Shown one piece after another: positions 37,580 through 62,144 of a stretch of DNA of 64,000 nucleotides. The stretch is taken from assembly GCF_024714475.1 (NCBI RefSeq), contig NZ_JAMZMI010000003.1, positions 186,001 through 250,000 on the forward strand, given 5' to 3'. The DNA is from Marinoscillum sp. MHG1-6. GTDB taxonomy: Bacteria > Bacteroidota > Bacteroidia > Cytophagales > Cyclobacteriaceae. The notes beneath the pieces are model-generated. The model made no database searches, was not told where the DNA came from, and worked only from the letters and a program-made list of their open reading frames with translations. Both the position numbers and the translations under genes were made by a program. Position 1 is the first letter of the stretch. Each line of letters starts with the position of its first letter.

Positions 37580-39733
37580 TCACTCCACGACCACTCTTTT
37601 TACGACCCGCTCGCCATCCAGATCCATCTGTAGCAGGTAAAGGCCTTTATCTACGGGTAGGTTTAAGGTGAATTGATTGATATTTTGTTTTTCTTTTGTT
37701 AGGAGTACCTCTCCGGAGAGGTTGATCAATTGAATGGCTGCCTGATGATATGTCCGATCCAATTGTACACTCATCACTCCCTCTCGCAAGGGCATGGGGT
37801 AAAGGATCAGTTTATCCTGAGAATCAATCCCCAGGATCTCCTCTTCTCCTTCCGCTGCGCAGTCAGATAGATAGCTGCAGTCATCGAGCCACAACTTCAC
37901 GGCATAGCTTCCGGGCACTTCGGGAGTGAAGTTTCTGCCAGTGGCACCGGCTATAGCTTCATTTGTTTCGCAATTGATCCACTCGTAAGCCACGCCCTCC
38001 ATTGTGCTTAAGAGGGTATTTCCACTGACTATAATGTCAATATCTACGGCATTCACGCTTTCTATTTCTATCGTGACCACGCTATCCTCTCCTGAGACAG
38101 CCGTCAAAGTCTGCTGGTACACTCCCGGAGCATCATAAGTTTCTCCCGCAACAGTGTAGCTGCTTTCACAAGTTTTGATGTTTACATAGCCGGACAGGGT
38201 CGACTGCGCCACACTGCGTCTTGTAAACTCCAACTCAAATGAATCAATCACCGCCTGAAAGGCCACATCCTCTGCCAGATTGGTGGTTTCATTAGGGTCA
38301 TTGTCGAGGTCATAAAGCTGGAAACCTCCGGGCGCTCCATATCGCTCTCCTGCATCATAATCCATCTGCACCCACTTCGTGTAGCGGTACTGTTCATTGC
38401 GCAAGGTATATCCCATATAGGCTCCACGAGGAAATTGTCCCATCGCCGCATATCGGACAGTCGCTGAAGCGTCCTCGAGTATGGGCAACAAGCTTTTTCC
38501 GCTCAATTCATCAGGCTTTGATAAGCCCGTCAGGTCACAGAGTGTTGGGTAGATGTCTACAAACTCCACAGGAGAATTGGAGCTTTGGCCCGCAGCCCCC
38601 ATCCCAGGATCTGCAATGATCAGCGGGGAACGTACCGCCTGCTCAAGGTTGGAGTGCTTGCCCCAAAGGTTGTGATCACCCAAATGCCAGCCATGGTCGC
38701 CCCACAGGACAATGGTCGTATTATCCATGAGCCCCGTCGTATCCATTTTATCAATGATCTTACCGATCTGCGCATCAATGTAGGAAACACAAGCAAAATA
38801 GCCGTGAATCAGTTTTTTCTGCTCCTCATCGTTCAGGTCCCGATCCTGGAAATAGGGAACATCAGAATAGCTATTGGTCATCTCGCCATTGTTTCGCCAG
38901 ACCATGGTCGGCACGTCCGCCGGTTGCTCCTGGAATGACGCGATGGCTATATCATTGATATCGTAGAGGTCCCAGTACTTTTTAGGTGCGTTGAAGGGCA
39001 GGTGAGGTTTGGAGAAGCCTGCCACCAGGAAAAACGGGTTAGAGGCTTCATTCACCTGATCCAGCTTTTGCAATATCCATTCGGCTGTGGCCCCATCTTT
39101 ATAGGAGTTGTCCGGAAGCTCCAGACCTTCTGCTGAGGGCTTGGCATCGGGAAAGAGCTTGACTCCTTCACTTTCATTCGCGCCCGGGTTATCTATCATG
39201 TATTGCTCAAATGCCGCATCGTCTGATGGAGTCTGCGGGTTGTGATACCCTTTATAACCACTTCCCGTGGTCGCATCATAATAACTTTCACTCACTGAGT
39301 GCTGATACTCTTCGGACCAGGACACAGTATCATATTGATCATCGACAGAACGAGGATCAAAGAGTTTTCCGGCGCCAAGGGTGTAATAGCCATTGAGTTT
39401 GAAATGCTGCGGTAAAGTGATGACGTCGGGGTTTTTATCCCTTATCAGTGTTTTTAAATCATAGACCGCTGTTTCATCCGGATACAAACCTGTGAGCAGA
39501 CTCGCCCTTGAAGGTGCGCAAACAGCCTGCTGGCAAGAGGCATTCAAAAAGGTGGTCCCTCTGGCAGCAATGCGATCGATGTTAGGGGTTACGGCCAGGT
39601 CATCTCCATACGCGGACAACAATGGCTTCAAATCATCAATAGCAATAATCAGTACATTTTTCTGAGCGCTGGCATGAAAGCATAGTACGGCCATTAATGC
39701 CATCAGGCAAACTTTTCTCTTGGTGTTCATCAT
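37580..39733 (-). CDS. Cys-type sulfatase (S1_7-like) with T9SS sorting domain
   Basis: Signal peptide (1-24), S1 sulfatase (about 26-505) with active-site C72 in QQAVCAPSRASLLTG and metal residues in AIDDLKP and LWGDHGWHLGDH, then a beta-rich linker region (about 515-640, with CESSYTVAGETYDAPGVYQQTL resembling adhesin-type repeats) and a T9SS sorting domain (about 650-717, LILYPMPLREGVMSV). Last gene of the main PUL operon. The ATG overlaps the stop of the S1_8-like gene before it by four bases (ATGA), so the two are translationally coupled. Predicted to act at the cell surface. Confidence 0.92.
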   Translation of the reverse strand: MMNTKRKVCLMALMAVLCFHASAQKNVLIIAIDDLKPLLSAYGDDLAVTPNIDRIAARGTTFLNASCQQAVCAPSRASLLTGLYPDETAVYDLKTLIRDKNPDVITLPQHFKLNGYYTLGAGKLFDPRSVDDQYDTVSWSEEYQHSVSESYYDATTGSGYKGYHNPQTPSDDAAFEQYMIDNPGANESEGVKLFPDAKPSAEGLELPDNSYKDGATAEWILQKLDQVNEASNPFFLVAGFSKPHLPFNAPKKYWDLYDINDIAIASFQEQPADVPTMVWRNNGEMTNSYSDVPYFQDRDLNDEEQKKLIHGYFACVSYIDAQIGKIIDKMDTTGLMDNTTIVLWGDHGWHLGDHNLWGKHSNLEQAVRSPLIIADPGMGAAGQSSNSPVEFVDIYPTLCDLTGLSKPDELSGKSLLPILEDASATVRYAAMGQFPRGAYMGYTLRNEQYRYTKWVQMDYDAGERYGAPGGFQLYDLDNDPNETTNLAEDVAFQAVIDSFELEFTRRSVAQSTLSGYVNIKTCESSYTVAGETYDAPGVYQQTLTAVSGEDSVVTIEIESVNAVDIDIIVSGNTLLSTMEGVAYEWINCETNEAIAGATGRNFTPEVPGSYAVKLWLDDCSYLSDCAAEGEEEILGIDSQDKLILYPMPLREGVMSVQLDRTYHQAAIQLINLSGEVLLTKEKQNINQFTLNLPVDKGLYLLQMDLDGERVVKRVVVE

Positions 39734-41388
39734 TTCACTTTTATGATCTCGCTATCCCTGTATCCGATCCTTGTGTTGACCACATACATATGCTGATCTT
39801 CCTTCAGCTGTATTGGTTGGTGATAAGGTTGCCAGCCGGACTCCGTGCCCGGGGTTACTGACTCGCTCGTCAGGTGGTAGGCCAAAGAGGCTCCCTCTAG
39901 CTGAGTACTGCAAGTCACCACCCCTTTCTTGCATTCGACTTTAGGTGCAGGACAAACAGGCTGAACGCCATCAGGCCACATTTCATTGAGCATTTCTGTT
40001 TCTGGAATCGTGCTGCGATCACCTACTTCGGCTAGCCAGGCATCCATCACATTCCTCAGTTCGGTAATCTCCTCCTCGTATGCAGGATTGCGGATCTCAT
40101 TGTTCAAGTTAAATGGGTCGGTAGCTCTGACATAAAACTCCTCAGCCGTTTTTGTATTTCTAAACCAGTACTCCTGGTTTTCATCAAGCTTTCCGGCGGC
40201 ACGCATTTCCAGTAATTCATTCATCATCGGGATGCTCTTTCGATAGCTTACGTCTTTATAGGCCGGCAATTCGGTGTGGTAGTTTCTCACATAGACAAAG
40301 TCCTTTGTGATCACACTCCTGATGCGATCACTGAACTCATCAAAACGATCTCCCGACCCAAAAATGTAGGGTTTTCCCGTGGTCTTCTGCCCTCCCAAAA
40401 AGGCACGACCTTGCAGATGATCTGGAATTTCAATTCCCGCTAAGGAAAGGATGGTCGGCGCGAGATCGACAAATGAAACCATCTCCTCTCTAAACTCCTG
40501 CTGTAGCTGGTCAGGTAGCCGCACCATCATCGGCACACGCAAGCCAGATACGTAATGCTCGCGCTTACCTCTCGGCAGCGGCCCACCGTGATCGCTGAAA
40601 AAGAAAATGATCGTATTATCAAGCAAGCCGGCTTCCTCCAGTTCTCGGATCCGCTCCCCTATCTCCGCATCCATCAATTCGATATTGGAATAGTTTCTGG
40701 CAACATCCCGACGTACGGTTTCTGTATCGGGATAGTAATCGGGTAGCGGAACTTCAGCCGGATCAACTGTCAGCTTTTTTTTGGCATTGTACCAAATCCT
40801 GGACTCGTGCGTCGTACTAGAGTTGAAGACTGCAAAGAAGGGCTGCCCTTCCTCTCTGTGTTTCCAATGGGCATCATTACCATTCTCATCCCAGGAGGTC
40901 AGCGGTGCTGCAAACTGGTAATCCGTCTTGGGGTTGTTGGTACAGAAATAATCCTGCTTTCGCAAATACTCTGTAAAGCACTTCACCGCAGAAGGAAGGA
41001 CCGCTGAATAGAGCGGCACCGGGAGTCCATTGATATCCTGAGCTTTCGATTCACCGGAGTACTCTCGCGTTCCCCAGCCCATTATATCCTTGCCCGCCCG
41101 CATGTGTTGGGTCCCAATGGAAATGGGGTACATTCCCGTTATGATAGAGGAGCGCGATGGTCCGCAGACGCCTACCGTAGCAAATGCCTGCGTGAAGATG
41201 AGGCTTTCTGCTGCCAGGCGATCAAGGTTTGGAGTGCTTGCCGTGGCATCACCATACATGGATAAGGTCGGGCTGATGTCTTCGCACGTGAGCCAAAGAA
41301 TATTGGGTTGCTGCTGTGCAGCAAGTTCAACGGACAGGATGCCTATCAAAAAACTAAAGAATACGCACCTCAACCTCATATTCTCCAT
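39730..41388 (-). CDS. Cys-type sulfatase (S1_8, heparan-sulfamidase-like)
   Basis: Signal peptide (about 1-24), S1 sulfatase with active-site C75 in VGVCGPSRSSIITGMYP, NILWLTCEDISPTLSMYGD as metal site with C/E variations, and FFFSDHGGPLPRGKREHYVSG. This set of blocks is typical of N-sulfoglucosamine sulfohydrolase-like enzymes (S1_8). Such proteins in PULs also act on O-sulfates of plant or algal glycans, so the name does not fix the substrate. The last 65 residues form a small beta domain (VVTCSTQLEGASLAYHLTSES) like a chitobiase C-terminal domain. The start overlaps the end of the esterase gene by 35 bases. Confidence 0.9.
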   Translation of the reverse strand: MENMRLRCVFFSFLIGILSVELAAQQQPNILWLTCEDISPTLSMYGDATASTPNLDRLAAESLIFTQAFATVGVCGPSRSSIITGMYPISIGTQHMRAGKDIMGWGTREYSGESKAQDINGLPVPLYSAVLPSAVKCFTEYLRKQDYFCTNNPKTDYQFAAPLTSWDENGNDAHWKHREEGQPFFAVFNSSTTHESRIWYNAKKKLTVDPAEVPLPDYYPDTETVRRDVARNYSNIELMDAEIGERIRELEEAGLLDNTIIFFFSDHGGPLPRGKREHYVSGLRVPMMVRLPDQLQQEFREEMVSFVDLAPTILSLAGIEIPDHLQGRAFLGGQKTTGKPYIFGSGDRFDEFSDRIRSVITKDFVYVRNYHTELPAYKDVSYRKSIPMMNELLEMRAAGKLDENQEYWFRNTKTAEEFYVRATDPFNLNNEIRNPAYEEEITELRNVMDAWLAEVGDRSTIPETEMLNEMWPDGVQPVCPAPKVECKKGVVTCSTQLEGASLAYHLTSESVTPGTESGWQPYHQPIQLKEDQHMYVVNTRIGYRDSEIIKVK

Positions 41389-42229
41389 ATTGTTCAGTTA
41401 TCGTGGATTCCCCTTCAATCAGACCCAACTCCTGCAAAAACTGATCGCATTGATCGGTCGTATCAATGAAGAATTTAATGGGTTTTCGCGCAAAAAAGGC
41501 ATGCTCCTGTCCTTCATAAAGCACGAGACGACAGACTTGCCCGGCTTCTTCCATCAAAGATTTATAACGTTTGGCCGTGGGAACAGGCAGTACTTTATCA
41601 TTTGTCCCCACCATGATAATGGTAGGTGGCTGATTTTCTCCAATATTGTCAATTGGGCTGATCTCCTCATGTCTTCCTTCCATTCTTTGGTAACCAAAAC
41701 CTTCAGGACCGGTATCCAGCACGGGATTGAAGAGCAACAATGCCGCGGGACGTTCCTTAGATTTCCCCCAAAACGCCGTGGTCGTAGCTAGGTGCCCACC
41801 GGCTGATCCGCCCCCCACAACAATATTTTTCTTATCGATACTCAATTTCCGGGCATGCTTTAGCAGGTATTGGTAGGCATGATACGCATCCTGAGTTGCG
41901 TCAAAAGGTGTAGTGCCATGCACGTCTTTAACCCGGTAATCGATACTAAAAGTGATCATGCCCCTGGAAGCAAAGTACATGCACTGCCGTTTGAAAGCTT
42001 TATGATCTCCCTGGTTCCAGCCACCACCATGGATAAACATAATGGCCTTGTAGGTTTTCTGATCATCAAAGTCCAGCGGCCGGTACATATGCAAATACAA
42101 TTGAGTCGTATCAACCTGCTTGTAGAGGATGGCGGTTGATTCAATTTCTATTCGCTGCTGCGCGACAACCATTAATGCGCCGAAAAGGCATAACGAAGTC
42201 AACGCTATTTGAATCTTATAATCTTTCAT
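41354..42229 (-). CDS. secreted alpha/beta-hydrolase esterase
   Basis: BD-FAE/acetyl-esterase-type hydrolase. The start at 42229 (MKDYKIQIALTSLCLFGALMVVAQQ) gives a clean signal peptide; the ATG at 42247 would overlap the previous gene by 11 bases. Oxyanion motif HGGGW, nucleophile Ser in GGGSAGGH, Asp in GTNDKVLP and His in EGQEHAFF complete the catalytic set. In this setting it would remove acetyl or other ester groups from the glycan so that the sulfatases and GH10 can work; that role is inference. About 291 residues. Confidence 0.88.
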   Translation of the reverse strand: MKDYKIQIALTSLCLFGALMVVAQQRIEIESTAILYKQVDTTQLYLHMYRPLDFDDQKTYKAIMFIHGGGWNQGDHKAFKRQCMYFASRGMITFSIDYRVKDVHGTTPFDATQDAYHAYQYLLKHARKLSIDKKNIVVGGGSAGGHLATTTAFWGKSKERPAALLLFNPVLDTGPEGFGYQRMEGRHEEISPIDNIGENQPPTIIMVGTNDKVLPVPTAKRYKSLMEEAGQVCRLVLYEGQEHAFFARKPIKFFIDTTDQCDQFLQELGLIEGESTITEQYGEYEVEVRIL

Positions 42230-42236
42230 ATGGTCA

Positions 42237-43778
42237 CTACTTTTCAATACAAGATTTTAGATAGCTTTTCATCTCCGCCATCACTTGATCATATTCCGGG
42301 TCGTTGGCCCGACTGACCTTTTCGAGGGGATCCTCTTCATAATCATAAAGCTCGGTCGCGATGAGGTTTTCTTCCTTGTAGTTGCCATTTTGTGCATTCG
42401 TTCCCTGATGCCACTCTATATACCGATAGCGCTCATTTCTCAGCGCATAACCCATTCTGTCCCCTCTAGGGTACTGGCTGAGGGCTGCTTCCTTCACCTT
42501 TTTTGTTTTTCCGGAAACGATAGGAAGTAAACTCGTGCCGGGAAGATGGCCCGGAGTTTCAACACCCGTCAGGTCACAAATGGTTGGAAAAATATCAATC
42601 AACTCTACCGGACTGTCATTTCGCTGAGCATTCGCATAATCAGGATCGGAGATCATGAGTGGGGTCCGCGTAGCTTGCTCGAAATTGGAATGTTTGTTCC
42701 AAAGCCCATGATCTCCCAGGTGCCAACCGTGATCACCCACCAAAACCACGGTAGTGTTCCGCTCCAGTCCTGATTCTTTCAAAAAGCCAAGTACCTTCCC
42801 AATCTGCGCATCGACATAGGAAACGCATGCATAATACCCATGGATCAACTCACGTTGCTTAGCTTCGATGACGGCTCCCTTTTCATTGAGACTGCCTTTT
42901 ATGTCCGAGTAGTTTTTTAGTTCCCCGAACGTATGATAGGCATAGGCGGGAGAACCCTGGGCATGCTCCTGAAACTCCGCTAACTGAATTTCATTACGAT
43001 CGTACAGGTCCCAATATTTCTTTGGTGCCACGAAAGGCAAATGGGGCTTATGGAAACCCACCACCATAAAAAAGGGCAGATCCCCTTTACTCAACTCCTC
43101 CATCTGCCGCATACTTTCCAAAGCAATCGCACCATCGGCATAGGCATCATCCGGCACATCAATGCATTCTGTTGACTGTCTAACCCCTCGTTTTTTGAAT
43201 TCGCGATTGACTGCCCGCCAAACCTTATCGCTCGTAGGATCGCCGGGGTAGTCTTCCTTAATTTCATTATAGAGCGCTAATGCCTCAGGGCTCTGGTAAT
43301 CGAAATTGGCCGGGATCCCATATCCATCCACATAGGTCAGATCCAAATCCTCCACGAAAGGCCGGGTCCATGATTGGACGTCGTTCTTTACTGCACCGTG
43401 CAATACCTTCCCCATCCCTACGGTTTCATAACCCTGCTGCTTAAAGTACTCCGGCATGGTCAGAATATCGGGCACCATATCCCTCATTTTGGTCTTGAGG
43501 TCCCAGACCTTCGTGTAGTCCGGTCGCATTCCGGTCAGAAAACTCACCCTGGAGGGAGCGCATACCGCCTGCTGGCAATGGGCATTGGTAAACGAGGTAC
43601 TCTTCGCCATCAGCGCATCCAGGTTCGGAGTGATCATTTGTTCCTGATCAAAACCATTAATCATCGGCTTCAGATCATCCACGATGATAAATAACACGTT
43701 TTTCTCCTGTGCTTTCAGATGAAACCCAAGAAGTATGATCACCAGCCATACTACTACGCCTTTATAACTAGCTCGCAT
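42237..43778 (-). CDS. Cys-type sulfatase (S1_7-like)
   Basis: Signal peptide (about 1-23), then one S1 domain of about 490 residues with active-site C73 in QQAVCAPSRVSFLTG, IVDDLKP, GFHKPHLPFVAPKKYWDLYD and VGDHGWHLGDH. No sorting domain, so probably periplasmic. It is most similar in this window to the sulfatase half of the next upstream gene (43786-47256), which ends 7 bases before its start. Tandem duplication followed by fusion or loss of the GH10 part is the simplest reading. Confidence 0.92.
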   Translation of the reverse strand: MRASYKGVVVWLVIILLGFHLKAQEKNVLFIIVDDLKPMINGFDQEQMITPNLDALMAKSTSFTNAHCQQAVCAPSRVSFLTGMRPDYTKVWDLKTKMRDMVPDILTMPEYFKQQGYETVGMGKVLHGAVKNDVQSWTRPFVEDLDLTYVDGYGIPANFDYQSPEALALYNEIKEDYPGDPTSDKVWRAVNREFKKRGVRQSTECIDVPDDAYADGAIALESMRQMEELSKGDLPFFMVVGFHKPHLPFVAPKKYWDLYDRNEIQLAEFQEHAQGSPAYAYHTFGELKNYSDIKGSLNEKGAVIEAKQRELIHGYYACVSYVDAQIGKVLGFLKESGLERNTTVVLVGDHGWHLGDHGLWNKHSNFEQATRTPLMISDPDYANAQRNDSPVELIDIFPTICDLTGVETPGHLPGTSLLPIVSGKTKKVKEAALSQYPRGDRMGYALRNERYRYIEWHQGTNAQNGNYKEENLIATELYDYEEDPLEKVSRANDPEYDQVMAEMKSYLKSCIEK

Positions 43779-43785
43779 GTTCCGT

Positions 43786-46700
43786 CTATTCTGTTATTTC
43801 AAAAACCAGGGCGCTGTCAATGTAGACCTGTCCTCCGCCCTCTGTTTTCCACCTGTTGATCACGAGCTCGGCTGATGTGGAGGTTGCTCCTGTCTCAAAC
43901 TCAAGGGTTCCCAACTGGTATTCGCCATCTCCCTTGACGCGGCTCACGATCTGCTCCCCTCCATAGCCATCCACTTTCACCGCGGAGACCATTCCCGACG
44001 GAGCTTTGATCCACACTTCCACTCCATATTTGGTCTTTGGCTTCAGGTCATTCAACTGCTTTTTCATGCCCGTTTTGTCAGCCGCCATCATCACGCAGGC
44101 CTTGCCATTTGCTGCCTCCTTTTGTACCAACTCAGGTCTGTTTTGACCAAATTGGATCCAGCTTTTCTCAAAATCTCCATTCTCAAAATCATCGCTAAAA
44201 ACAGGCAACTTACTTGATAACACCAGTGGTGCTTCAGGGTTTAAAAGGGCTTCTCTCACTGCGTAGTAGGCTGGCTTCGGTGTACCCTCCTCATCAAACA
44301 TGAACAGGAACTTATCTGCATGACGACCTCTGCCGTCTACGATGCCCCAGCTATTGAAGGTGACTACTCCTGTTGCTCTTTTAGCTAGCAAAATTTTCAA
44401 CACGTTGGCATAGGCATCTGCCTGCTTCCTTAGGGCCTCTTCGGTTTTGTTGCCGTCCCAAATCTTGTAATCAATTTCGGTCACGTGAAAATCAAGGTCA
44501 TTGGCATGTGCCCAATCAATCAATGATGACAGGTAGTCCAATTCCTGCGGACTCAATGCCAGAGGCCGGTCACTGCGGAGATGTCCCTGCCAGCCCATGC
44601 CATCCACGCGCAAACCCTTTGCTCTTAAATACAAAATGGTCTCCTTGACCCGCTCCCACATGACCGGCTCCATGCCGCCATGATGGTTGTAGACCTGACT
44701 GATGTCCGGTGCGAACTTATTAGCAATCTCAAATGCTCTGGAAATATACAGTGGGGTTTGATTTTTGTCGTTATCACTTCCGATGATCGTCCATGGGTTT
44801 TCCCACTCGGCAATATCTTCTTTTGGCCCGAACCAGGTCCCGTCAGTTTCCACCGTTTCATTCACCACATCCATCCATTTGATATTCGGATGGCCATTGA
44901 ATTTTTTACATTGAGCGGTCATGTATTCTTCCATCACCTTTTCCAACTCTTTTGGGGTGCGCACATCATCCTTTGCCCATTTTGATGCCTGCGGGCTGAT
45001 GGGGCCATGCAGTCGGACGGTTAGGTCGTTTTTCTCAGCCATCTCAATAACCGCGTCAACCTGCAACCAGTCCCAAACTCCGGGCTCAGGGTGAACCCGT
45101 GATTGCTTGGCGCAATTCTCCGGTACGGTATAGTTGAATTGGCTGGTCAGAATGGCCTCAGCTTCTGTACCTAACTGATCATGATTGATCGTGGCTCCGA
45201 GGTAAAAATCTCCGTTGTATTGCTCTTCAATGATACTCTTTAGGGATGCCCCCCGGATCATTTCCGCAGCGGATTTCTTTTCAACGAGGGACACGTCATC
45301 AAACCATGAAAGGCCTGTACCCTCACCATATTTCTGAACGCCGATTTTAGCAGACACCTGACCCTTTCCTGTGGTGAACTCCGCGCTCAATTGCACATAG
45401 TCCGACTCTTTCGATTTGATTTTGATATCCTCTCCACCATACTCAACCACCTTCAGTATCACTGCTTCGTTATTTTGCGTTTTAGCTAGCACACTTACTT
45501 CATAAGTCGTTTCCGGCCTGAGGTCTTTTACCAGCTGAAGGGCTCCTCCCTTACTTCCGGTAAACCTTAGTGCATTGTTTCCCGAATAAGGCTGATCGTC
45601 TACTACTTCAATCTTGCATTTTCCAAAAATTCTCCATCCCTTATCTCCATCTTCGAATCCTCCATTATCGATCAGGTTAGCTCCCGTTTCAATTGCCGCG
45701 GAAGATTTCTTTTCCGGGCGTGTAGCCTTTTTAAAAGCTTTCTTTTGTTGTGTTTGTAAACGCAGATGCGCAGATAATTGGGCCTGAAGATCCTCTGCAA
45801 GCGCAGTGTTTAGCGCCACTACATTGACCTTTTCCTGTGGGTCTTTTTTGTAATCGTAAAGCTCCTTAAACAGGATATTTTGTTCGTCTGAAATGTCTCC
45901 ATCCTTATACCAGGCGACATAGCGATAGCGATCATTTCGCAAGGCATAGCCCATGTGTCCCGCCCGGGGATACTGGCTTACCGCAAATTCTTTCACTGCT
46001 TTTTCCTGTCCGGAAATGACAGGCGCAAGCGACTTACCCTGCAGGTTTCCGGGGATCGGGATACCGCTCAACTCACATAAGGTTGGGAAAATATCCACAA
46101 ACTCCACCGGCGATTCGTTTTGCACCCCCTTTTCGTACCTCGGATCTGCAAAGATCAACGGAACTCTTGTGGCCTGCTCAAAGTTGGTATGCTTATTCCA
46201 TAGTCTATGGTCTCCCAGGTGCCAGCCATGATCTCCCCAAAGCACAATCGACGTTTTTCCCTTCAACCCATTCGCTTCCAGAGCATCCAGCACTCTACCA
46301 ATTTGTGCGTCGATATAGGAGACACAGGCGTAATATCCGTGGATCAGTTCGCGTTGCTTTGACTCTTTTACCAGTCCATTCGCACCATAAGCATCCGGTA
46401 TATCCGTATAGGAATTCAACTCCCCACTGTTGTGGTAAGGCAATTCGATGGTGTTGGCTGCGTGATTCTGAAACTCCGCCAAAGGAAGCTTTTCCCGGTC
46501 ATACAGATCCCAGTATTTTTTCGGCGCTGCAAAAGGCAGATGTGGTTTCTTAAATCCTACACACAGCAGGAAAGGCTTATCCACTTTTGATAGCCTCTGC
46601 AACTGCATCACCGCAGTTTTGGCCACCATGCCATCAAAATAACCTTCATCAGCAATGTCCAGCATTTCTACGGAAGGCTTGTAGCCCTCTCTCATAAATT

Positions 46701-47256
46701 TATTGAGCTCGCCTCCGCTAAGTCCGCCAGCCTCTCCTCGGGTCCTCAATTCATCAAATTGATTCTTATTTTCCGACGACTGATAATGCGAAAAGTAAGG
46801 CTCCCCATAAGTCGGGTCATTAACCGGAGGCATGATGTATGGGGTCGACCAGGAAGCCTCGTCTAAATCCTTATCCACGCTTCTCGGGTCGTATATTTTC
46901 CCCATCCCCACCGTTTCATAGCCCTGCTGCCTGAAATGCTGTGGCAGGGTTAAAATATTGGGATTTTTGTCTCTAATCATGGTTTTCAGGTCCCAGACCT
47001 CGGTAAGGTCCGGACGCAAACCTGTCAATAAACTGGCTCTCGATGGACCACAAACGGCCTGCTGGCAGTGGGCATTGGTGAAGGTCACCCCCATACTTGC
47101 CAATCGATCAATATTAGGGGTAATGGCTATCTCATCTCCATAAGACCCAATCAATGGTTTCAGGTCATCCACGGCAATGAATAATACATTGCGCTGAGCA
47201 TTCGCTATAAAGGCAAACGCTAAAATCAACACTAAAAAATATCCTCTCATCCTCAT
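43786..47256 (-). CDS. sulfatase-CBM-GH10-CBM fusion enzyme
   Basis: One chain of 1156 residues: signal peptide (1-21), S1_7-like sulfatase (about 22-500) with active-site C69 in QQAVCGPSRASLLTG, a basic linker (about 503-520), a CBM4/9-like jelly-roll (about 526-660, LIDNGGFEDGDKGWRIFG), a GH10 barrel (about 680-1005) with acid/base E800 (WMDVVNETVE) and nucleophile E927 (FHVTEIDY), and a second jelly-roll (about 1018-1156, FSDDFENGDFEKSWIQFG). It has no T9SS domain, so a periplasmic site is likely. A single protein able both to desulfate and to cut a xylan-type backbone points to a sulfated xylan. The frame is continuous with no sign of an artefactual join. GH10 active-site strand is altered as in 25859-27463. 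Confidence 0.93.
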   Translation of the reverse strand: MRMRGYFLVLILAFAFIANAQRNVLFIAVDDLKPLIGSYGDEIAITPNIDRLASMGVTFTNAHCQQAVCGPSRASLLTGLRPDLTEVWDLKTMIRDKNPNILTLPQHFRQQGYETVGMGKIYDPRSVDKDLDEASWSTPYIMPPVNDPTYGEPYFSHYQSSENKNQFDELRTRGEAGGLSGGELNKFMREGYKPSVEMLDIADEGYFDGMVAKTAVMQLQRLSKVDKPFLLCVGFKKPHLPFAAPKKYWDLYDREKLPLAEFQNHAANTIELPYHNSGELNSYTDIPDAYGANGLVKESKQRELIHGYYACVSYIDAQIGRVLDALEANGLKGKTSIVLWGDHGWHLGDHRLWNKHTNFEQATRVPLIFADPRYEKGVQNESPVEFVDIFPTLCELSGIPIPGNLQGKSLAPVISGQEKAVKEFAVSQYPRAGHMGYALRNDRYRYVAWYKDGDISDEQNILFKELYDYKKDPQEKVNVVALNTALAEDLQAQLSAHLRLQTQQKKAFKKATRPEKKSSAAIETGANLIDNGGFEDGDKGWRIFGKCKIEVVDDQPYSGNNALRFTGSKGGALQLVKDLRPETTYEVSVLAKTQNNEAVILKVVEYGGEDIKIKSKESDYVQLSAEFTTGKGQVSAKIGVQKYGEGTGLSWFDDVSLVEKKSAAEMIRGASLKSIIEEQYNGDFYLGATINHDQLGTEAEAILTSQFNYTVPENCAKQSRVHPEPGVWDWLQVDAVIEMAEKNDLTVRLHGPISPQASKWAKDDVRTPKELEKVMEEYMTAQCKKFNGHPNIKWMDVVNETVETDGTWFGPKEDIAEWENPWTIIGSDNDKNQTPLYISRAFEIANKFAPDISQVYNHHGGMEPVMWERVKETILYLRAKGLRVDGMGWQGHLRSDRPLALSPQELDYLSSLIDWAHANDLDFHVTEIDYKIWDGNKTEEALRKQADAYANVLKILLAKRATGVVTFNSWGIVDGRGRHADKFLFMFDEEGTPKPAYYAVREALLNPEAPLVLSSKLPVFSDDFENGDFEKSWIQFGQNRPELVQKEAANGKACVMMAADKTGMKKQLNDLKPKTKYGVEVWIKAPSGMVSAVKVDGYGGEQIVSRVKGDGEYQLGTLEFETGATSTSAELVINRWKTEGGGQVYIDSALVFEITE

Positions 47257-47267
47257 CTTCCAAATAT

Positions 47268-48890
47268 TTAGTGATTGCCGGAAAAGGTTCCAAAATCCGC
47301 TTCGGTGATCGCCCTGAATTCCTCCAGTGTCTTATCATCACCATATTCCGCTTGCTTTTCCTTTAATTCTTCCTTCATTGAGGTAATGATCGATGCATAT
47401 TCAGGATTGTCTATCGCATTGTTCAATTCATTCGGGTCCTTCTCCAAATCATAGAACTCCCAAACATCGATGTTGTAGTAGAAGTGGATCAGCTTGTAAC
47501 GCTCATTTCTAATCCCATAATGCGGCTGTACATGATGCCAGAATGGGAACTCATAGTAATGGTAATACATCGACTGATCCCAGGTTTCCGGGGTTTCTCC
47601 TTTCACATTCGCCACAAAGCTCTTGCCCTGAACGGGGCCAGGAGCCTCAACTCCGGCGAACTCCAAAATCGTTGGGGCAAAATCCACGTTGGAGATAATG
47701 TCATTGTTTTCCAGTGGCTCTTCTACCATGGCCGGGTAGCGCAATAGGAATGGCATTCTTAAAGACTCCTCGTACATAAATCGCTTGTCAAACCAACCGT
47801 GATCACCCAGATAAAAGCCCTGATCTGATGTATAGATTACTATAGTATTTTCAGCCAAACCATTTTCATCCAGGTAATCCAACACCCTACCAATATTATC
47901 ATCCACCGACTTCACACAAGCCAGGTAATCTTTGATATATCGCTGATATTTCCACTTCCTCGCCTCCTCTACCGTCATGGTATCATTAGGCAACCATCCT
48001 TCACCAAATCCTCTCTTATTTCCCCATCCAAGCCATTTCTGAAGCTCACCGTTACCCATGCCTTCAGGCGGCATAAGCTTCATATCCTTGCGATTGAAGA
48101 AATCCATCGTCATGTCCGTATCCCCGGCTGTCTTTTCTCTTCCTTCATAATCGTCATCAAAGGTTTCAGGGTAAGGCATTTTGACACCGTCAAACAGGTC
48201 CATGTATTTCTCCTCCGGATCCCAATTTCGGTGGGGCGCCTTGTACTGGAGCATCATCAAAAATGGCTTGTCGGTATTCTTTGCATCTGAGAGCCACTCC
48301 AGCGCAAAGTCTGTTGTTAAAGTAGTGGCATATCCTTTTTCTGTGACCTTCTTACCATTCTCATTGTACACCGGGTCATAGTAAAAGCCTTGCTGACCGG
48401 GATTGTCATGGTACTTGAAGTGATCAAAACCGACCGGCTCCGTGCCCAAATGCCATTTACCAAAAAGTGAGGTGGTATAGCCATTTTCATGAAGCGCCTG
48501 CGGAAAGGTCCATTGATCGGAATTGAACTTACCCCCCGACTCATTTTTGTAATATCCATTCACGTGGCTGTATTTACCTGTCAAAATCGCTGCTCGGCTG
48601 GGACCACATATAGCATTGGTACAAAACACGTTATTGAATTTCACCCCTTCATTCGCAATCCGATCAATGTTGGGTGTTTGAAGGTACTGGTCATAAATAC
48701 CACCATAGGCTGAGATCGCGTGCGTGGCATGGTCGTCACTCATGATAAACAGGATATTGGGACGCTTCACTTCCTCCTCCTGCTGCTTTTTCTGGCAACT
48801 CAAAATCAGGGGAATGACCATGAATATCATAAAGTAGTTTATCACCTTTCCTGTATTGCTCACTAACATTTTCAACTTATCTAACATCAT
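47268..48890 (-). CDS. Cys-type sulfatase lipoprotein (S1_11-like)
   Basis: N-terminal signal with lipobox IPLILSC (C32). S1 domain with active-site C95 in TNAICGPSRAAILTGKYS, IMSDDHATHAISAYG as metal site, GKWHLG, and YTSDQGFYLGDHGWFDKRFMYEESLRMPF. These blocks are typical of S1_11-type sulfatases related to N-acetylglucosamine-6-sulfatases; assigned by eye. Membrane-anchored, periplasmic or surface. Lies 11 bases downstream of GH3 and 11 bases upstream of the fusion gene, all in one operon. Confidence 0.92.
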   Translation of the reverse strand: MMLDKLKMLVSNTGKVINYFMIFMVIPLILSCQKKQQEEEVKRPNILFIMSDDHATHAISAYGGIYDQYLQTPNIDRIANEGVKFNNVFCTNAICGPSRAAILTGKYSHVNGYYKNESGGKFNSDQWTFPQALHENGYTTSLFGKWHLGTEPVGFDHFKYHDNPGQQGFYYDPVYNENGKKVTEKGYATTLTTDFALEWLSDAKNTDKPFLMMLQYKAPHRNWDPEEKYMDLFDGVKMPYPETFDDDYEGREKTAGDTDMTMDFFNRKDMKLMPPEGMGNGELQKWLGWGNKRGFGEGWLPNDTMTVEEARKWKYQRYIKDYLACVKSVDDNIGRVLDYLDENGLAENTIVIYTSDQGFYLGDHGWFDKRFMYEESLRMPFLLRYPAMVEEPLENNDIISNVDFAPTILEFAGVEAPGPVQGKSFVANVKGETPETWDQSMYYHYYEFPFWHHVQPHYGIRNERYKLIHFYYNIDVWEFYDLEKDPNELNNAIDNPEYASIITSMKEELKEKQAEYGDDKTLEEFRAITEADFGTFSGNH

Positions 48891-48900
48891 AACTCAACCC

Positions 48901-51225
48901 TTATAATACACTTGATTCTACCACATTCACCTCCACACGCTGAAGGTCTTCATCACCGGAAGAGCCACCTACCATGAGGGTGAAGACTCCTTTTTCGACT
49001 CCATAATTCATGTCGAGATCATAATAAGCGAGATCGCTGACCTTCAGATCAAACTGAACTTGCTTTGATTCTCCTGCCTTGAGCGCCACTCTTTGATAAC
49101 CTTTCAATTCCTTAACCGGACGAGTAACCTCAGAGACCTGGTCGTTGATGTATAGCTGCACCACTTCTGTTCCGTCCACCTTACCACTGTTGGTCACCTG
49201 TGCCGTCACCGTGATGACATCATCCGGTTGATAATCCGTTTTATCCGTCTTCAAGGAACTGTATTCATAATTAGTATAACTCAACCCGTAACCGAAATGC
49301 CAAAGTGGCTCAGAGGGTGCATCAACATACTTATGAAAGAACACGGATGGCTTGTGGTTATACACCATTGGCACCTGTCCTACATGATAAGGGAAAGTCA
49401 ACGTCAGCTTTCCTGATGGATTCAGATCACCCTTCACAATCTCCGCAACAGCCTGACCTCCAAAAGCTCCAGGCTCCCATGCTTCAATGATGGCCGGGAT
49501 ATTCTCTTTGATCCATGGCTCAGAAAGCGGTCTTCCATTGACCATAACAACAATGATGTTCTTATTGAGCTGATAAAGCTTCTTCACCAACTCCAGTTGG
49601 TTGCCCATCAGGTTAATCGTAGAGCGACCTACGTTCTCACCACAATTCTTTTCGTCCTTGTCATATCTCAAAGAGTTAGAACCAACCGCCACCACGATCA
49701 CATCATAGCCTTTCGCCTGACTGATTGCTTTGTCCAGCAGTGCCTGATCAGGATTTACAAGGCTTTCGCCGCTATTCACAAAATCGACCGCTGCTCCCTC
49801 AAATACCTGCTTAAAACCTTCATAGATCGTCATGATATTTGATTCCGGCTGTGGCAACGACCAGTCCCCCATTACGCGGTGGTTGTTGGCATTTGGACCT
49901 GTCACCAAAATCTTTTTCTTATCAGCAGATAGCGGTAACAACCCATCATTCTTCAATAACACAATGGACTTTCTTGCCGCCTCCAATGCCAAGGCTTTAT
50001 TGGCCTCGTTGTAGAGCGTCTGATCTATCACCTTTTCATCCACAAATGGATTTTCAAACAATCCCAATTGAAATTTATGGTTCAGGATGCTTCGACATGA
50101 CTCATTAATTTTCTCTTCGGCGATCTTTCCCTCCCGTACCAATTCAGCCAATGGATACAGGAAATCAGGACCGTGCATATGCATATCCATTCCCGCATCT
50201 ACAGATAACCGGATCGCTTCTTTTCCATTTTCGGCTACCTGATGCAGCTTTTCGATGCGCTCTATATCCATCCAGTCACTTACCACAAATCCATCGTATT
50301 TCCATTCGCCTCTGAGGATATCGGTCAGCAACATTTTATTGCCATGACATGGCACTCCATTTAACTCATTATGCGCCGCCATGAAGGACGCCACTCCTGC
50401 TTCTACCTGTGCTTTGTATGGAGGCAGCCATATCTCCCTCAACTGTCTCATGGAAGCATCCATGGGTGAGGCATTTGTTCCGTTATAAGGCTCACTTCCT
50501 GCAATGAAATGCTTGGCACACGCGAGCACATTGTCCTTGCCAAAATCACCCTGGTAACCTTCTGTAAAAGCCACACCCATCTGTGAAACCATGTATGGAT
50601 CTTCTCCGAATGTTTCACCCACACGGCCCCATCGGGGATCCCGGGCTACATCTACATTGGGAGAAAAAGTCCAGTGCATTCCGGTAGCTCTGACCTCCTG
50701 AGCGGTAGCCTTAGCCACACGATAAAGCAGGTCATTATCCCACGAAGAAGATAATCCCAACTGTGTAGGGAATACCGTGCTGCCCTCAATCATGGCATGA
50801 CCGTGGATGGCATCGATTCCAATCAGCAATGGTATTTTCAACCGGGACTCTTGAGCCAGCTTTTGTAATTCATTCGCCTCTTTCGCATCCTTCACATGCA
50901 GAAAAGAGCCAATCTCTCCATAGGCAATCAGGGATTTCAATGAGTCGGTACTCATACCGGGGTACAATCCCCACTGATCGTTATGGATCAGCTCATCACC
51001 ACTAATACGCTTCTTGGATTCTTCAATATGCAAGGGTGCCACGTATTGGCACATCTGTCCAATTTTCTCCTCCAGGGTCATTTTGGACATTAAATCCTCA
51101 ACTCTCTCTGCCACCGGGGCATTTGGATCGGTGTATTCATAAGTTGCCATTTTCGTCTGACAACCAACACTGGCAATCATTAACCAAAGAGCAGAAAATG
51201 CACTTAATATATATCGGGAGTTCAT
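48901..51225 (-). CDS. GH3 beta-glycosidase lipoprotein (BglX-type)
   Basis: Lipobox near C22 (IASVGC), GH3 N-terminal barrel (about 35-375) with nucleophile D317 in FVVSDWMDIERI and the usual KHF and RDPRWGR blocks, GH3 C-terminal alpha/beta domain (about 410-625), and a fibronectin III-like domain (about 660-760). GH3 of this layout are exo-beta-glucosidases or beta-xylosidases; with GH10 genes beside it, beta-xylosidase activity is a reasonable guess. Anchored in the periplasm to finish oligosaccharides imported by SusCD. 774 residues. Confidence 0.92.
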   Translation of the reverse strand: MNSRYILSAFSALWLMIASVGCQTKMATYEYTDPNAPVAERVEDLMSKMTLEEKIGQMCQYVAPLHIEESKKRISGDELIHNDQWGLYPGMSTDSLKSLIAYGEIGSFLHVKDAKEANELQKLAQESRLKIPLLIGIDAIHGHAMIEGSTVFPTQLGLSSSWDNDLLYRVAKATAQEVRATGMHWTFSPNVDVARDPRWGRVGETFGEDPYMVSQMGVAFTEGYQGDFGKDNVLACAKHFIAGSEPYNGTNASPMDASMRQLREIWLPPYKAQVEAGVASFMAAHNELNGVPCHGNKMLLTDILRGEWKYDGFVVSDWMDIERIEKLHQVAENGKEAIRLSVDAGMDMHMHGPDFLYPLAELVREGKIAEEKINESCRSILNHKFQLGLFENPFVDEKVIDQTLYNEANKALALEAARKSIVLLKNDGLLPLSADKKKILVTGPNANNHRVMGDWSLPQPESNIMTIYEGFKQVFEGAAVDFVNSGESLVNPDQALLDKAISQAKGYDVIVVAVGSNSLRYDKDEKNCGENVGRSTINLMGNQLELVKKLYQLNKNIIVVMVNGRPLSEPWIKENIPAIIEAWEPGAFGGQAVAEIVKGDLNPSGKLTLTFPYHVGQVPMVYNHKPSVFFHKYVDAPSEPLWHFGYGLSYTNYEYSSLKTDKTDYQPDDVITVTAQVTNSGKVDGTEVVQLYINDQVSEVTRPVKELKGYQRVALKAGESKQVQFDLKVSDLAYYDLDMNYGVEKGVFTLMVGGSSGDEDLQRVEVNVVESSVL

Positions 51226-51375: not shown

Positions 51376-52995
51376 TTATTCTTCTTCTGCCGCAAATGGC
51401 ACTGAGGCTTCCACTCTGATCTCATCAATAAGGAATTGCGCACCACCAGTGGCAGCTCCGGATTTCACAACCCTCCAGGCTATGTAAATATTAGATTCAC
51501 CCGGGGTTACTTCCACTTCCTGAAAAGGAACAGGGTTAAGATCTGCATCACTTGTCAAAGTTGACCAAATAGAAGACCCACTCCAGCCAGCATTATCAAA
51601 GGCCATTATCTCCTGCCAGTGAGCATCATAGGTGCCTGTTGCCAATCCAGTATTGCTATGACTACTCGCAAGAGTGCGTTGATACCAGCCTAATCTATTA
51701 TCGGCAAAACCAAAACCGTCGTTGAATGAGACCCTCAGCTTTTTCCAGGTCGATTGCATGGTTAAGTTCAGTTCAAGAACCGCATCAATCGGATTATCCA
51801 CATCACCGCCGGGCTGATTTAATCGCACGGTTTTAACACCTTTCGAGGTATTCTCAAACACATTCATGTTCTGTACTGAAGCATTTAGTGCGTAACCCGT
51901 CAGGTTCGCATTGAAGGCTTCCGGTGCCGTAGGCGTACTTGTGGCCGCATCAAAGTTTTCGGTAAAGACAGGGTTCTCTGTGTCCCATCTGGTTTCCACG
52001 GTCAGATTGAAAACTCCTTCAAAATCCTTTGAAACGCCGCTGGCATTGGTTGCAATCACCCCGATGGTATGAACACCCAGCGGAAGTCCAGCATCCGCAG
52101 CGATAGAAACGCTACCATTGGCATCTGAAGAGAATGATCCTGAGAAAGCACTCAGTTCCGCAGGTAAAATCACCTCATATCCTCCGGCAGCATCCATTCC
52201 ATCCAGTGTCGGATTGGAAGTAGAATAAGCAGTCCATGGTGAAAGTGTCACTCCTGTAAGGGCAGTAATTCCATCCTGCTGGAAGTAATCTATGGTTGGG
52301 GCCGGACCTACATTTACGGTAAGCACCTCAATAAAAGTCACTATCCCCAGATTAGTCTCCACTTTAACAGAAAAGGATGGACTGATCTGCTCACTGGCGG
52401 CAGTTTTTTCAATTTCTCCTGTACTTTCATTGATTTCAAATCCTGGTACAGATTCAATCAGAGAGTACTTCACCGATGTCACATCACCTGCCGAGTTATC
52501 CGTATAACTCACTGTGGCCAGTACTCCCAGATCCAGTGACCCAACTTCAACGCTGGCGTTATCTATATTCAAAGAAATAGGCACCTCCAACACGGTAAAT
52601 GTCACCGCTTCTTTCATCACCAACAGACCAGAGGCGGTAGCTATGCCTACGCCGAGCGTATATTCTCCCGGGCTCAATTCTCCTTCATTTTCGTAAGAGA
52701 TCACCCCTGAAGCTTTATCAATACTGAACTTGTTTCGCTGAAAAGTACTTCCTTCAGGCCCCTTAATAGAATCCAGCACAAAGCTGTAAGCTCCTGAAAT
52801 TTCCACCGTTGGTGTATCTGCGCTGATCACATCCAGATATGGATAAGTTTCCACATCGGAAAAAGTGACCACACTGTCTTCGGCTGAGATCGTTTGAGGT
52901 ACATACCTTTCAAAATCTTCCTCTTCCTGGCAACTAAAAAAGACCAGTACAAGGAGCGCCAATATGATATTAAAATTGATATTCAAAGTTTTCAT
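51376..52995 (-). CDS. surface glycan-binding-type lipoprotein (SusE/F position)
   Basis: Lipobox VFFSC (near residue 22), followed by three or more Ig/cadherin-like domains (about 35-330) and a C-terminal jelly-roll-like domain (about 340-530, starting DTENPVFTENFDAATSTP and ending ATGGAQFLIDEIRVEAS). Its position directly after susD and its domain make-up fit an outer-membrane surface glycan-binding protein. No conserved family could be named with confidence. It would hold the polysaccharide for the surface enzymes and for SusCD. Confidence 0.75.
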   Translation of the reverse strand: MKTLNINFNIILALLVLVFFSCQEEEDFERYVPQTISAEDSVVTFSDVETYPYLDVISADTPTVEISGAYSFVLDSIKGPEGSTFQRNKFSIDKASGVISYENEGELSPGEYTLGVGIATASGLLVMKEAVTFTVLEVPISLNIDNASVEVGSLDLGVLATVSYTDNSAGDVTSVKYSLIESVPGFEINESTGEIEKTAASEQISPSFSVKVETNLGIVTFIEVLTVNVGPAPTIDYFQQDGITALTGVTLSPWTAYSTSNPTLDGMDAAGGYEVILPAELSAFSGSFSSDANGSVSIAADAGLPLGVHTIGVIATNASGVSKDFEGVFNLTVETRWDTENPVFTENFDAATSTPTAPEAFNANLTGYALNASVQNMNVFENTSKGVKTVRLNQPGGDVDNPIDAVLELNLTMQSTWKKLRVSFNDGFGFADNRLGWYQRTLASSHSNTGLATGTYDAHWQEIMAFDNAGWSGSSIWSTLTSDADLNPVPFQEVEVTPGESNIYIAWRVVKSGAATGGAQFLIDEIRVEASVPFAAEEE

Positions 52996-52996
52996 C

Positions 52997-54517
52997 TTAT
53001 TCCTGGATTAAGAGGTTAGCATTAATTTCAAGGTCAGGGATATCCAGCCTCATGACTACATCTTCTCCCTCGGCATGTTGCACATCCACACTCGGATCAA
53101 AGAGCACATTGTTATTATGGAAATCGATGATATTCGCTTTAAACCAGTCATATCCTCTTCTTCTCACCGTCATCATATCCTGACCTTCACCCAATAGCTC
53201 AAACTGATATTCCCGCATGATCGCTTCTCTGAAATCAGCCTGTGTGCCTGAGTATTTGGCCTGCGGAGAAAGTCCAACACGACCCAGCACCTCTGAGACA
53301 TATCCTAACTGCTCACCATTTTGCAGCTCGTTAGATATCTCTGCCAACATCAACAACAGATCTGCATAGCGATAAAGCACAATGTTTTGATTGCCTACCC
53401 TGTCTTCGTTTGTGGGGTCCTTTTCAGAAAGCTTGAAGAAAAATGGATGAGCATTAGCAAAAGAACTTCTGGAGCTATTGACCGGATACTTATTCGTGGT
53501 TGAACCATTGTTTTGCTGTTTCCAGCTGGTCAGATAGGTCGTAGTCAACCTTGGGTCCCCGGGATAGGTATTGGCATGCAAGTCATAAAAGTCCGCATTG
53601 ACCTGCAACCAGCCGAAAGTGTTTGCATAGGTGTAATTATTAGGAGTATAAGCCCTCACCCAGTCGTGCGAGGCACCGTCACTAGATTGCAACTCAAAAA
53701 TGCTCTCAACATTATTATCTCCTGTTACCTCCTGGAAAAGAGCATCATAATCTCCCACGAGTTCATATTGGCCGTAAACCTTTATCGCTTCGTCATAAGC
53801 TACCTGCCAGTAATCAGCGGTATCACTTTTAATATCGGCTGAAGCAGTAGCCAACGACATGTACACTTTCGACAACAGCATATTGGCTGCCAAACTTTGT
53901 GGGTATTGATCGCCCGCCGAACCATTCATCAATGAAAGCGCCATCTCAGCATCTTTGATGATTTGCGAATAAACCTCCGCTTCTGATGACTTGGCCAATG
54001 AAATGGTTTCCGTTGTAGCCGGTGCCAATCTCATAGGCACCTCTCCCCACATGCTCACCAGGGTGAAGTAGGAATAGGCTCTGACAAAGTAGGCCTGACC
54101 TATCACATCATTGATCACCATCTGGTCAGGATCGATTGACCCTTCATCCGCTGTAGCAGAATGAATGACATCATTAGCTCTTGCTATGGCCACATAAATC
54201 TGTGCCCAAACACGCTCAGCATTCAGTTCTCCACTTGAGGAATTCAACGATCCGATGCTGGTGTTGAAGGCTGTATTCACACTATTACCTCCCCTTCTGG
54301 AGACCATGTAGCCCGAATAAAGGCCATTTAGGAAATAGTAAACGTTACTGTAAAGGTCATATCCGGCCAGGCCAAGATAAACACCGTCCAGTGCGGCACG
54401 TGCATTTTCAGCTGTGCTATACACATTCTCGTTCGACAAAAATGGCGGATCTTCTTCCAAGCTACATCCTGTAAACAAGACCCCCACAATCAATATATAT
54501 GTTATAATATTTTTCAT
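52997..54517 (-). CDS. susD: SusD-like glycan-binding lipoprotein
   Basis: RagB/SusD family. The start at 54517 (MKNIITYILIVGVLFTGCSLEEDPPFL) gives a proper lipobox with Cys at residue 18, while an upstream ATG at 54592 lies inside susC. Typical blocks: AENARAALDGVYLGL, RANDVIHSA, YFVRAYSYFTLVSMWGEVPMRL, LADLLLMLAEISNE-like (YADLLLMLAEI) and REAIMREYQFELLGEGQDMMTVRRRG. It forms the lid over SusC at the outer membrane and binds the target glycan. Overlaps no functional part of susC when this start is used. Confidence 0.93.
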   Translation of the reverse strand: MKNIITYILIVGVLFTGCSLEEDPPFLSNENVYSTAENARAALDGVYLGLAGYDLYSNVYYFLNGLYSGYMVSRRGGNSVNTAFNTSIGSLNSSSGELNAERVWAQIYVAIARANDVIHSATADEGSIDPDQMVINDVIGQAYFVRAYSYFTLVSMWGEVPMRLAPATTETISLAKSSEAEVYSQIIKDAEMALSLMNGSAGDQYPQSLAANMLLSKVYMSLATASADIKSDTADYWQVAYDEAIKVYGQYELVGDYDALFQEVTGDNNVESIFELQSSDGASHDWVRAYTPNNYTYANTFGWLQVNADFYDLHANTYPGDPRLTTTYLTSWKQQNNGSTTNKYPVNSSRSSFANAHPFFFKLSEKDPTNEDRVGNQNIVLYRYADLLLMLAEISNELQNGEQLGYVSEVLGRVGLSPQAKYSGTQADFREAIMREYQFELLGEGQDMMTVRRRGYDWFKANIIDFHNNNVLFDPSVDVQHAEGEDVVMRLDIPDLEINANLLIQE

Positions 54518-54534
54518 TTCAATACTGTTTTGGG

Positions 54535-61895: not shown

Positions 61896-62144
61896 ATCGG
61901 GAGTACTGTGCTTATATAAATCTAAGCTAAAAAGAGTATAAATTGTTTTAAAACCGGAATGCAAAGAATGGACGAATGCAAACCACTATTAACAGGAAAC
62001 AAACCAGTTTACTGCATTAAATGATGATTTTTAATTCCCGGGCACAAAACGCCTGACCAAGTGGGGCCTTATGAATACCGAGAATAGTCGGCCTTTTGAT
62101 TCAGTGAACATTAAACCTTTAACCCCAAAAATGATCTAACTCCC

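Follow-up and report, generated by a model that had tools for sequence, protein, structure and literature searches.

A fused S1 sulfatase and GH10 enzyme with changed active-site residues in a candidate sulfated-xylan utilization locus of Marinoscillum sp. MHG1-6

Polysaccharide utilization loci (PULs) of the sulfatase–GH10 kind are known from bioinformatic work, since PMC6794258 and PMC6298971 describe them. In its accessible part, PMC6794258 (2019) reports a PUL with a 'sulfatase domain-containing GH10' in North Sea Bacteroidetes, with sulfated xylan or a xylose-rich glycan as its predicted target, and PMC6298971, likewise in excerpt, lists xylose PULs bearing sulfatases. Here, we analyzed a 64,000-nucleotide stretch of Marinoscillum sp. 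MHG1-6 (contig NZ_JAMZMI010000003.1, positions 186,001 to 250,000; hereafter the window), in which one gene encodes an S1 sulfatase and a GH10 enzyme in a single chain. The PUL of PMC6794258 holds an S1 sulfatase and a GH10 in one protein, a GH3, further sulfatases and SusC/D, and the window locus matches this pattern with its fused sulfatase–GH10, a GH3, two more sulfatases and SusC/D. The two differ, as far as published descriptions allow them to be likened, in that the PULs of PMC6794258 come from Formosa, Aurantivirga and Polaribacter, whereas the window fusion is nearest to Reichenbachiella and carries carbohydrate-binding modules (CBMs).

Single proteins provide closer comparisons. The closest solved relative of the sulfatase half (35% identity) is the S1_7 sulfatase P18_S1_7 of Formosa agariphila (PDB 6hhm), which acts on xylose 2-sulfate in ulvan according to the accessible text of two reviews, although these disagree on whether its action is endo or exo; it has a His where the fusion has an Asp, and its solved chain contains no GH10. 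A multimodular S1_25–GH78 ulvan enzyme (P36_S1_25, 6hr5), whose sulfatase part removes sulfate from the substrate of the rhamnosidase joined to it (PMC8360166, in excerpt), similarly combines an exo-sulfatase and a glycoside hydrolase for one glycan in one chain, but with another sulfatase subfamily, another hydrolase family, and rhamnose instead of xylose. The GH10 half shares its fold, catalytic Glu pair and −2 residues with TmxB of Thermotoga maritima (1vbr), but lacks the −1-subsite tryptophans Trp108 and Trp308. A literature search covering mostly open-access journal papers found no paper on an assayed sulfatase–GH10 fusion and no description of an Asp at the position of H138 of iduronate-2-sulfatase (IDS) or of the GH10 Trp deletions; the accessible portions of PMC9122927, PMC10877868 and PMC9478159 contain nothing on a sulfatase–GH10 fusion.

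We read the fused protein, at a probability of about 0.55, as a bifunctional enzyme, probably located in the periplasm, that belongs to a sulfated-xylan-type utilization locus. For the substrate, the sulfate position, the order of the two steps and the compartment, we infer the following scheme: SusC/D would import sulfated xylo-oligosaccharides, the N-terminal S1 sulfatase would remove sulfate from xylose, most likely from O-2, and the C-terminal GH10 would cleave the beta-xylosidic backbone of the same oligosaccharide, its −1 subsite perhaps holding a still-sulfated or otherwise substituted sugar; the GH3, the esterase and the other sulfatases would complete the breakdown. The less familiar part looks to be that both active sites differ from their textbook versions.

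The gene is a single open reading frame on the minus strand, from an ATG at 47256 to a stop at 43786, encoding 1156 aa with zero internal stops. It and its parts are as follows.

43786..47256, minus strand: fused sulfatase-CBM-GH10-CBM gene, 1156 aa (open reading frame and Pfam)
47197..47256, minus strand: plain N-terminal signal peptide, residues 1–20, no Cys (by eye)
45760..47193, minus strand: S1 sulfatase domain, residues 22–499 (Pfam; nearest solved relative 6hhm, S1_7)
47050..47052, minus strand: C69, predicted formylglycine of CGPSR, 37/37 in fused sulfatases
46888..46890, minus strand: D123, aligned with the active-site His of IDS (H138)
45280..45681, minus strand: CBM_4_9-type module between the enzymes, residues 526–659 (Pfam match 526–636)
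44251..45228, minus strand: GH10 domain, residues 677–1002 (Pfam, domain model, fold search)
44959..45015, minus strand: rebuilt beta-3 loop, residues 748–766, TmxB Trp108 deleted (alignment, clade check)
44857..44859, minus strand: E800, GH10 catalytic acid/base, in DVVNE
44476..44478, minus strand: E927, GH10 catalytic nucleophile, in HVTE
44332..44337, minus strand: residues 974/975, the segment where TmxB Trp308 is missing (alignment, clade check)
43795..44187, minus strand: second CBM-like module, residues 1024–1154 (Pfam and homology to the first CBM)

Pfam placed Sulfatase at residues 22–399 (161 bits, cut-off 25), SGSH_C at 348–499, CBM_4_9 at 526–636 (55.5 bits, cut-off 25.9) and GH10 (PF00331) at 677–1002 (151.5 bits, cut-off 22.1). 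The C-terminal stretch 1024–1096 matched GH101_dom-5 slightly above the cut-off (31.8 versus 27 bits), and the C-terminal module and the first CBM are homologs (32% over 130 aa, E 1e-15). An earlier note, made from the sequence without database searches, had proposed just this order of sulfatase, CBM, GH10 and second CBM-like module in one exported chain; Pfam confirms the order, C69 (CGPSR), E800 (DVVNE) and E927 (HVTE) lie at the residues it gave, and the signal peptide expected of an exported protein is present by eye. No NCBIfam model scored above its cut-off for the fusion, or for the GH3 or the esterase of the locus. An AlphaFold2 model of the full chain (pLDDT 84.5, pTM 0.50) left the mutual placement of the domains unfixed, and with it the relative orientation of the two active sites that the earlier note had proposed to check by structure prediction.

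To place the fusion among its relatives, four GH10 domains of its type, two fused and two free, were aligned and used as the query; 141 confirmed relatives were found and the best 80 loci kept. In 42 of these 80, an S1 sulfatase lies ahead of the GH10 in one frame with it; this share may lean towards fusions because two of the four query rows were fused. Since this frame recurs so often, with full-length relatives, and since a full-length relative in Reichenbachiella faecimaris (locus L025) is 67% identical, both a frame break between the halves and an assembly chimera, the errors that would have undone the earlier note's claim of a single chain, are excluded. Its further claim that such a fusion is rare did not hold: the pairing is common to many marine bacteria and was already in print in 2019 (PMC6794258, in excerpt). 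By genome, the GH10 clade is uncommon within the class, with a strong match (E 1e-40) in 2 of 395 sampled genomes, this one included. Across 37 fused proteins, sulfatase distances correlated with GH10 distances (Mantel r 0.85; 0 of 2000 permutations as high), a co-divergence such as domains inherited together would show. The CBMs vary: phmmer searches with the window's own CBMs, on contigs some of which are short, detected none in 32 of the 42 fused loci, one after the enzymes in 4, two between them in 3 and singleton patterns in 3, with the window's exact order and both CBMs only in L025. Of 26 full-length fused proteins, 10 matched the Pfam CBM_4_9 model, among them that of the window. Given the 32 loci with none detected, the CBMs were rejected as an essential part of the design.

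The sulfatase half keeps the catalytic positions compared, except for one His. CGPSR at residue 69 matches the S1 maturation motif C/S-x-P/A-S-R, and the fusion keeps the metal, formylglycine and sulfate residues D30, D31, R73, K120, H239, D342, H343 and K355, the counterparts of IDS D45, D46, R88, K135, H229, D334, H335 and K347, which the available part of PMC5472762 lists as metal- and sulfate-binding. With sulfatase rows under 60 bits or 380 residues left out of the counts, D30, D31, C69, R73, K120, H239, D342 and K355 are kept in 37/37 fused sulfatases, and H343 in 36 (one gap). The position of IDS H138 is an Asp (D123) in all 37, within the motif GKI(F/Y)DxRxVD, whose Asp, Arg, Val and Asp each occur in 37/37 fused rows. 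The 31 other sulfatase rows have His in 20 and Asp in 11, the Asp-type non-fused rows including two window paralogues and three Polaribacter pairs in which sulfatase and GH10 are split; among control sulfatases from relatives' genomes, the motif was readable in 12 of 19 loci, with His in 12/12, 11 of them in the form GKxxH. Within the window, the stand-alone sulfatases at 37580–39733 and 29262–31553 (both minus strand) show the Asp-type motif DPR(S/N)VD, and the neighbor at 42237–43778 is His-type.

In the accessible text of PMC5472762, H138 of IDS is given a likely catalytic role at the formylglycine and called 'highly conserved among sulfatases', although it does not belong to the family signature; its replacement throughout the fused set could mean that the sulfatase half no longer catalyzes and instead acts as a module for binding sulfate. 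We consider this very unlikely, as the other catalytic positions are kept, the stand-alone sulfatases, Asp-type included, retain the Cys in 31/31, and the locus encodes a homolog of the formylglycine-generating enzyme (FGE). The best solved match of the sulfatase half is 6hhm, titled 'family S1_7 ulvan-specific sulfatase', both by sequence (E 2.6e-89) and by fold (E 8e-40, TMt 0.87, 35% identity); 6hhm and IDS, its best solved matches, are both S1_7 members, which makes a place of the sulfatase half in S1_7 a tentative one, drawn from PDB matches and not from a SulfAtlas tree.

The GH10 half is a predicted endo-beta-1,4-xylanase-type enzyme. Its domain model (pLDDT 92.8, pTM 0.92) has a TIM-barrel fold and superposes on the xylanase–xylobiose complex 3nj3 (Z 39.2, root-mean-square deviation (rmsd) 2.2, 316 residues) and on TmxB (1vbr; Z 38.8, rmsd 2.1, 312 residues); the fold matches also list 4pmv, a reducing-end exo-oligoxylanase belonging to GH10. 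Each Glu of the catalytic pair (E800 in DVVNE, E927 in xTE) is present in 90/90 clade rows, from which three GH10 rows below 100 bits (in L029, L040 and L063) were left out and used as a small control. Subsite residues were transferred from the conserved −2 and −1 sets of TmxB (PMC6163442, in excerpt; the paper's numbering is the chain position used here plus 19). The −2 set E67, N68, K71, Q111 and W300 corresponds to E713, N714, K717, Q756 and W970 of the fusion, and the −1 set H104, N152, E153, Q228, H230 and E259 to H750, N799, E800, Q890, H892 and E927. At the −1 subsite, Trp108 and Trp308 both align to gaps in the GH10 of the fusion, and these xylose-contacting tryptophans are lost in 90/90 clade rows, fused and free alike. 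A loop H(G/S)PxxPQxSxW, with no Trp between His and Gln and no hidden insert column, is found in 90/90 (in the stricter form RxHGP(I/V)(S/G)PQ(A/S)SxW in 82/90), and no Trp occurs within 25 residues after W970 in any of the 90. Among the left-out GH10s, which are more distant, those of L029 and L063 keep the loop HTLIWGNQ with its Trp, and that of L040 has a WGxxDxxxW stretch. These tryptophans are usual in xylanases and are no requirement for GH10 membership; from their loss we infer a −1 subsite wider than usual.

This altered subsite bears on the order of the two steps. The GH10 might accept a substituent at −1 and cut the chain while it is still sulfated, leaving the products to the sulfatase, as suggested by the loss of both tryptophans throughout the clade while the window protein keeps the −2 set and the catalytic Glu pair, and by the retention of K762 (87/90) and R766 (90/90). 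The same loss would fit equally another sugar at −1, for example a hexose, and it is not tied to the fusion, because free GH10s without a fused sulfatase share it. We regard this reversed order as quite possible, at somewhat less than even odds.

The surroundings of the fusion resemble a PUL. A tight minus-strand run comprises the GH3, a sulfatase, the fusion, a sulfatase, the esterase and two sulfatases, with gaps of 7 and 11 bases flanking the fusion; upstream of the run lie SusC, SusD, a putative surface lipoprotein and a hybrid two-component regulator. The features are listed below.

57882..61964, minus strand: hybrid two-component regulator
54535..57678, minus strand: SusC-like TonB-dependent transporter
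52997..54592, minus strand: SusD-like protein
51376..52995, minus strand: putative surface glycan-binding lipoprotein (position after SusD, N-terminus; no informative Pfam match)
48901..51225, minus strand: GH3, putative lipoprotein (Pfam; N-terminus)
47268..48890, minus strand: S1 sulfatase, putative lipoprotein (Pfam; lipoprotein by eye)
42237..43778, minus strand: S1 sulfatase, His-type at the IDS H138 position (Pfam, alignment)
41354..42247, minus strand: BD-FAE-like esterase (Pfam)
39730..41388, minus strand: S1 sulfatase, 552 aa (Pfam)
37580..39733, minus strand: S1 sulfatase, Asp-type, weak match to a type IX secretion system (T9SS) tail (24.7 bits, cut-off 27; Pfam)
31631..34828, minus strand: GH5 with CBM_4_9 and PKD domains and a T9SS tail
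29262..31553, minus strand: S1 sulfatase, Asp-type, T9SS tail
27471..28967, plus strand: S1 sulfatase, 498 aa
25859..27463, plus strand: free GH10 of the same odd clade, T9SS tail
24272..25336, minus strand: FGE homolog, which would mature Cys-type sulfatases

The FGE homolog carries the motif GGSFLCNDSYC, whose two Cys we take to be the FGE active-site pair. It starts with a lipobox-like MTIACSS (by eye), which suggests a lipoprotein outside the cytoplasm. Among the 42 fused loci, many of them on short contigs, the neighbors include another S1_7-like sulfatase in 33, a GH3 in 26, SusD in 21, SusC in 20 and an esterase in 12; in G043, a member of another family, one locus (L023, on the same contig as L063) repeats the order sulfatase, sulfatase, esterase, sulfatase, fusion. 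The whole genome of Marinoscillum sp. MHG1-6 encodes two GH10 domains, both inside the window, and one xylose isomerase above its cut-off.

The earlier note had taken the fusion as direct evidence that desulfation and cleavage meet on one polymer, a sulfated xylan or another xylose-containing sulfated glycan. The link to sulfated xylose is plausible, given a 2-sulfo-xylose sulfatase (6hhm) as best match, the xylose isomerase, the co-divergence of the two domains and the published PULs. Several points weigh against our reading nonetheless. In addition to the exchanged His, which 6hhm itself retains, and the lost tryptophans, S1_7 is polyspecific, including iduronate-2-sulfatases and carrageenan sulfatases acting on 4-sulfo-galactose according to the accessible literature, and therefore does not force xylose as the substrate. 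All three S1_7-type window sulfatases that were compared with the PDB match 6hhm best, so the match informs on the locus more than on the fusion. For the GH3, an exo-beta-1,3/1,6-glucosidase model gives the highest score and a beta-xylosidase model the second, all scores lying below the cut-offs. Together with the altered −1 subsite and a GH5 of the cellulase family in the locus, the polyspecificity and the GH3 score would also suit a sulfated substrate that is no xylan, such as a mixed heteropolymer with xylose among its sugars or a glucan; this is possible but doubtful, as each half has a xylose-acting enzyme as its best solved relative and the genome has the xylose isomerase.

The proposed site of action weakens the other part of that claim, that the two activities meet on the polymer. 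No lipobox pattern was found in 36/36 full-length fused relatives, with start codons unassigned (L035 offers just 9 residues ahead of the domain, and L100 is borderline, with a Cys in a near-lipobox context), and no T9SS sorting domain was found in 26/26 full-length fused proteins. Because neither was detected, the fusion probably works in the periplasm on oligosaccharides imported by SusC/D and not on the polymer outside, although missing signals are negative evidence on the compartment, and CBMs are unusual for a periplasmic enzyme. In a reading that follows the earlier note, the protein would act on the polymer outside the cell, where its sulfatase would strip the chain and thereby let the attached GH10 bind and cut, an arrangement consistent with the two CBM-like modules, the export signal and the S1_25–GH78 precedent. 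We find it unlikely, as most fused loci have no detected CBM, and as the GH5, the free GH10 and the sulfatase at 29262 in the same locus do carry T9SS tails above the cut-off (that of the sulfatase at 37580 is just below) whereas the fused proteins do not. A surface partner may exist in the free GH10 at 25859–27463 (plus strand), because this other GH10 of the genome, of the same clade, carries a T9SS tail.

Some relatives encode the two activities separately. In three Polaribacter metagenome-assembled genomes, sulfatase and GH10 are adjacent genes (L096, 7980–10987; L101, 8036–11011; L104, 8017–10999), with the Asp-type sulfatase frame ending 20, 258 and −11 bases, respectively, before the GH10 frame (stop to stop) and each half having its own N-terminal signal-like stretch. 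The sulfatases of these pairs sit with the fused ones inside a supported clade of the sulfatase tree, and the pairs read as a split fusion whose halves stayed adjacent; covalent linkage is therefore not essential there. As to a single origin of the fusion, the label 'fused' needs 4 changes on the sulfatase tree, where stand-alone sulfatases of the Asp type fall among fused rows together with the three split pairs, and 5 on the GH10 tree, both being quick trees with SH-aLRT (Shimodaira–Hasegawa-like approximate likelihood ratio test) support only and no outgroup root; for some free GH10 rows near contig ends (for example L095, starting at base 118), an upstream sulfatase is not judgeable. The fused protein of L071 (8390–11488) lies on a contig labeled Chlorobiota and is nearest to a Marinilabiliaceae one, indicating either horizontal transfer or mis-binning. 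Tandem pairs of free clade GH10 genes occur in L062, L064, L066, L068, L070, L072, L077 and L089. As a tentative proposal, this marine GH10 branch may have opened its −1 subsite so as to take sulfated or otherwise substituted xylose directly and, jointly with S1_7-like sulfatases that work with Asp for His, may form a pair for sulfated xylo-oligosaccharides, encoded as a single chain by many lineages and by two neighboring genes in some Polaribacter.

Sulfated xylans have been inferred to be a main bloom-time food of marine Bacteroidetes, partly from such PULs (PMC6794258, in its accessible part), and in the papers covered no biochemical proof of that role was found. The sulfated-xylose link of the Marinoscillum fusion is plausible, and its altered active sites deserve testing at the bench: they give concrete, testable reasons why ordinary assumptions about xylanases and sulfatases may fail for such loci.

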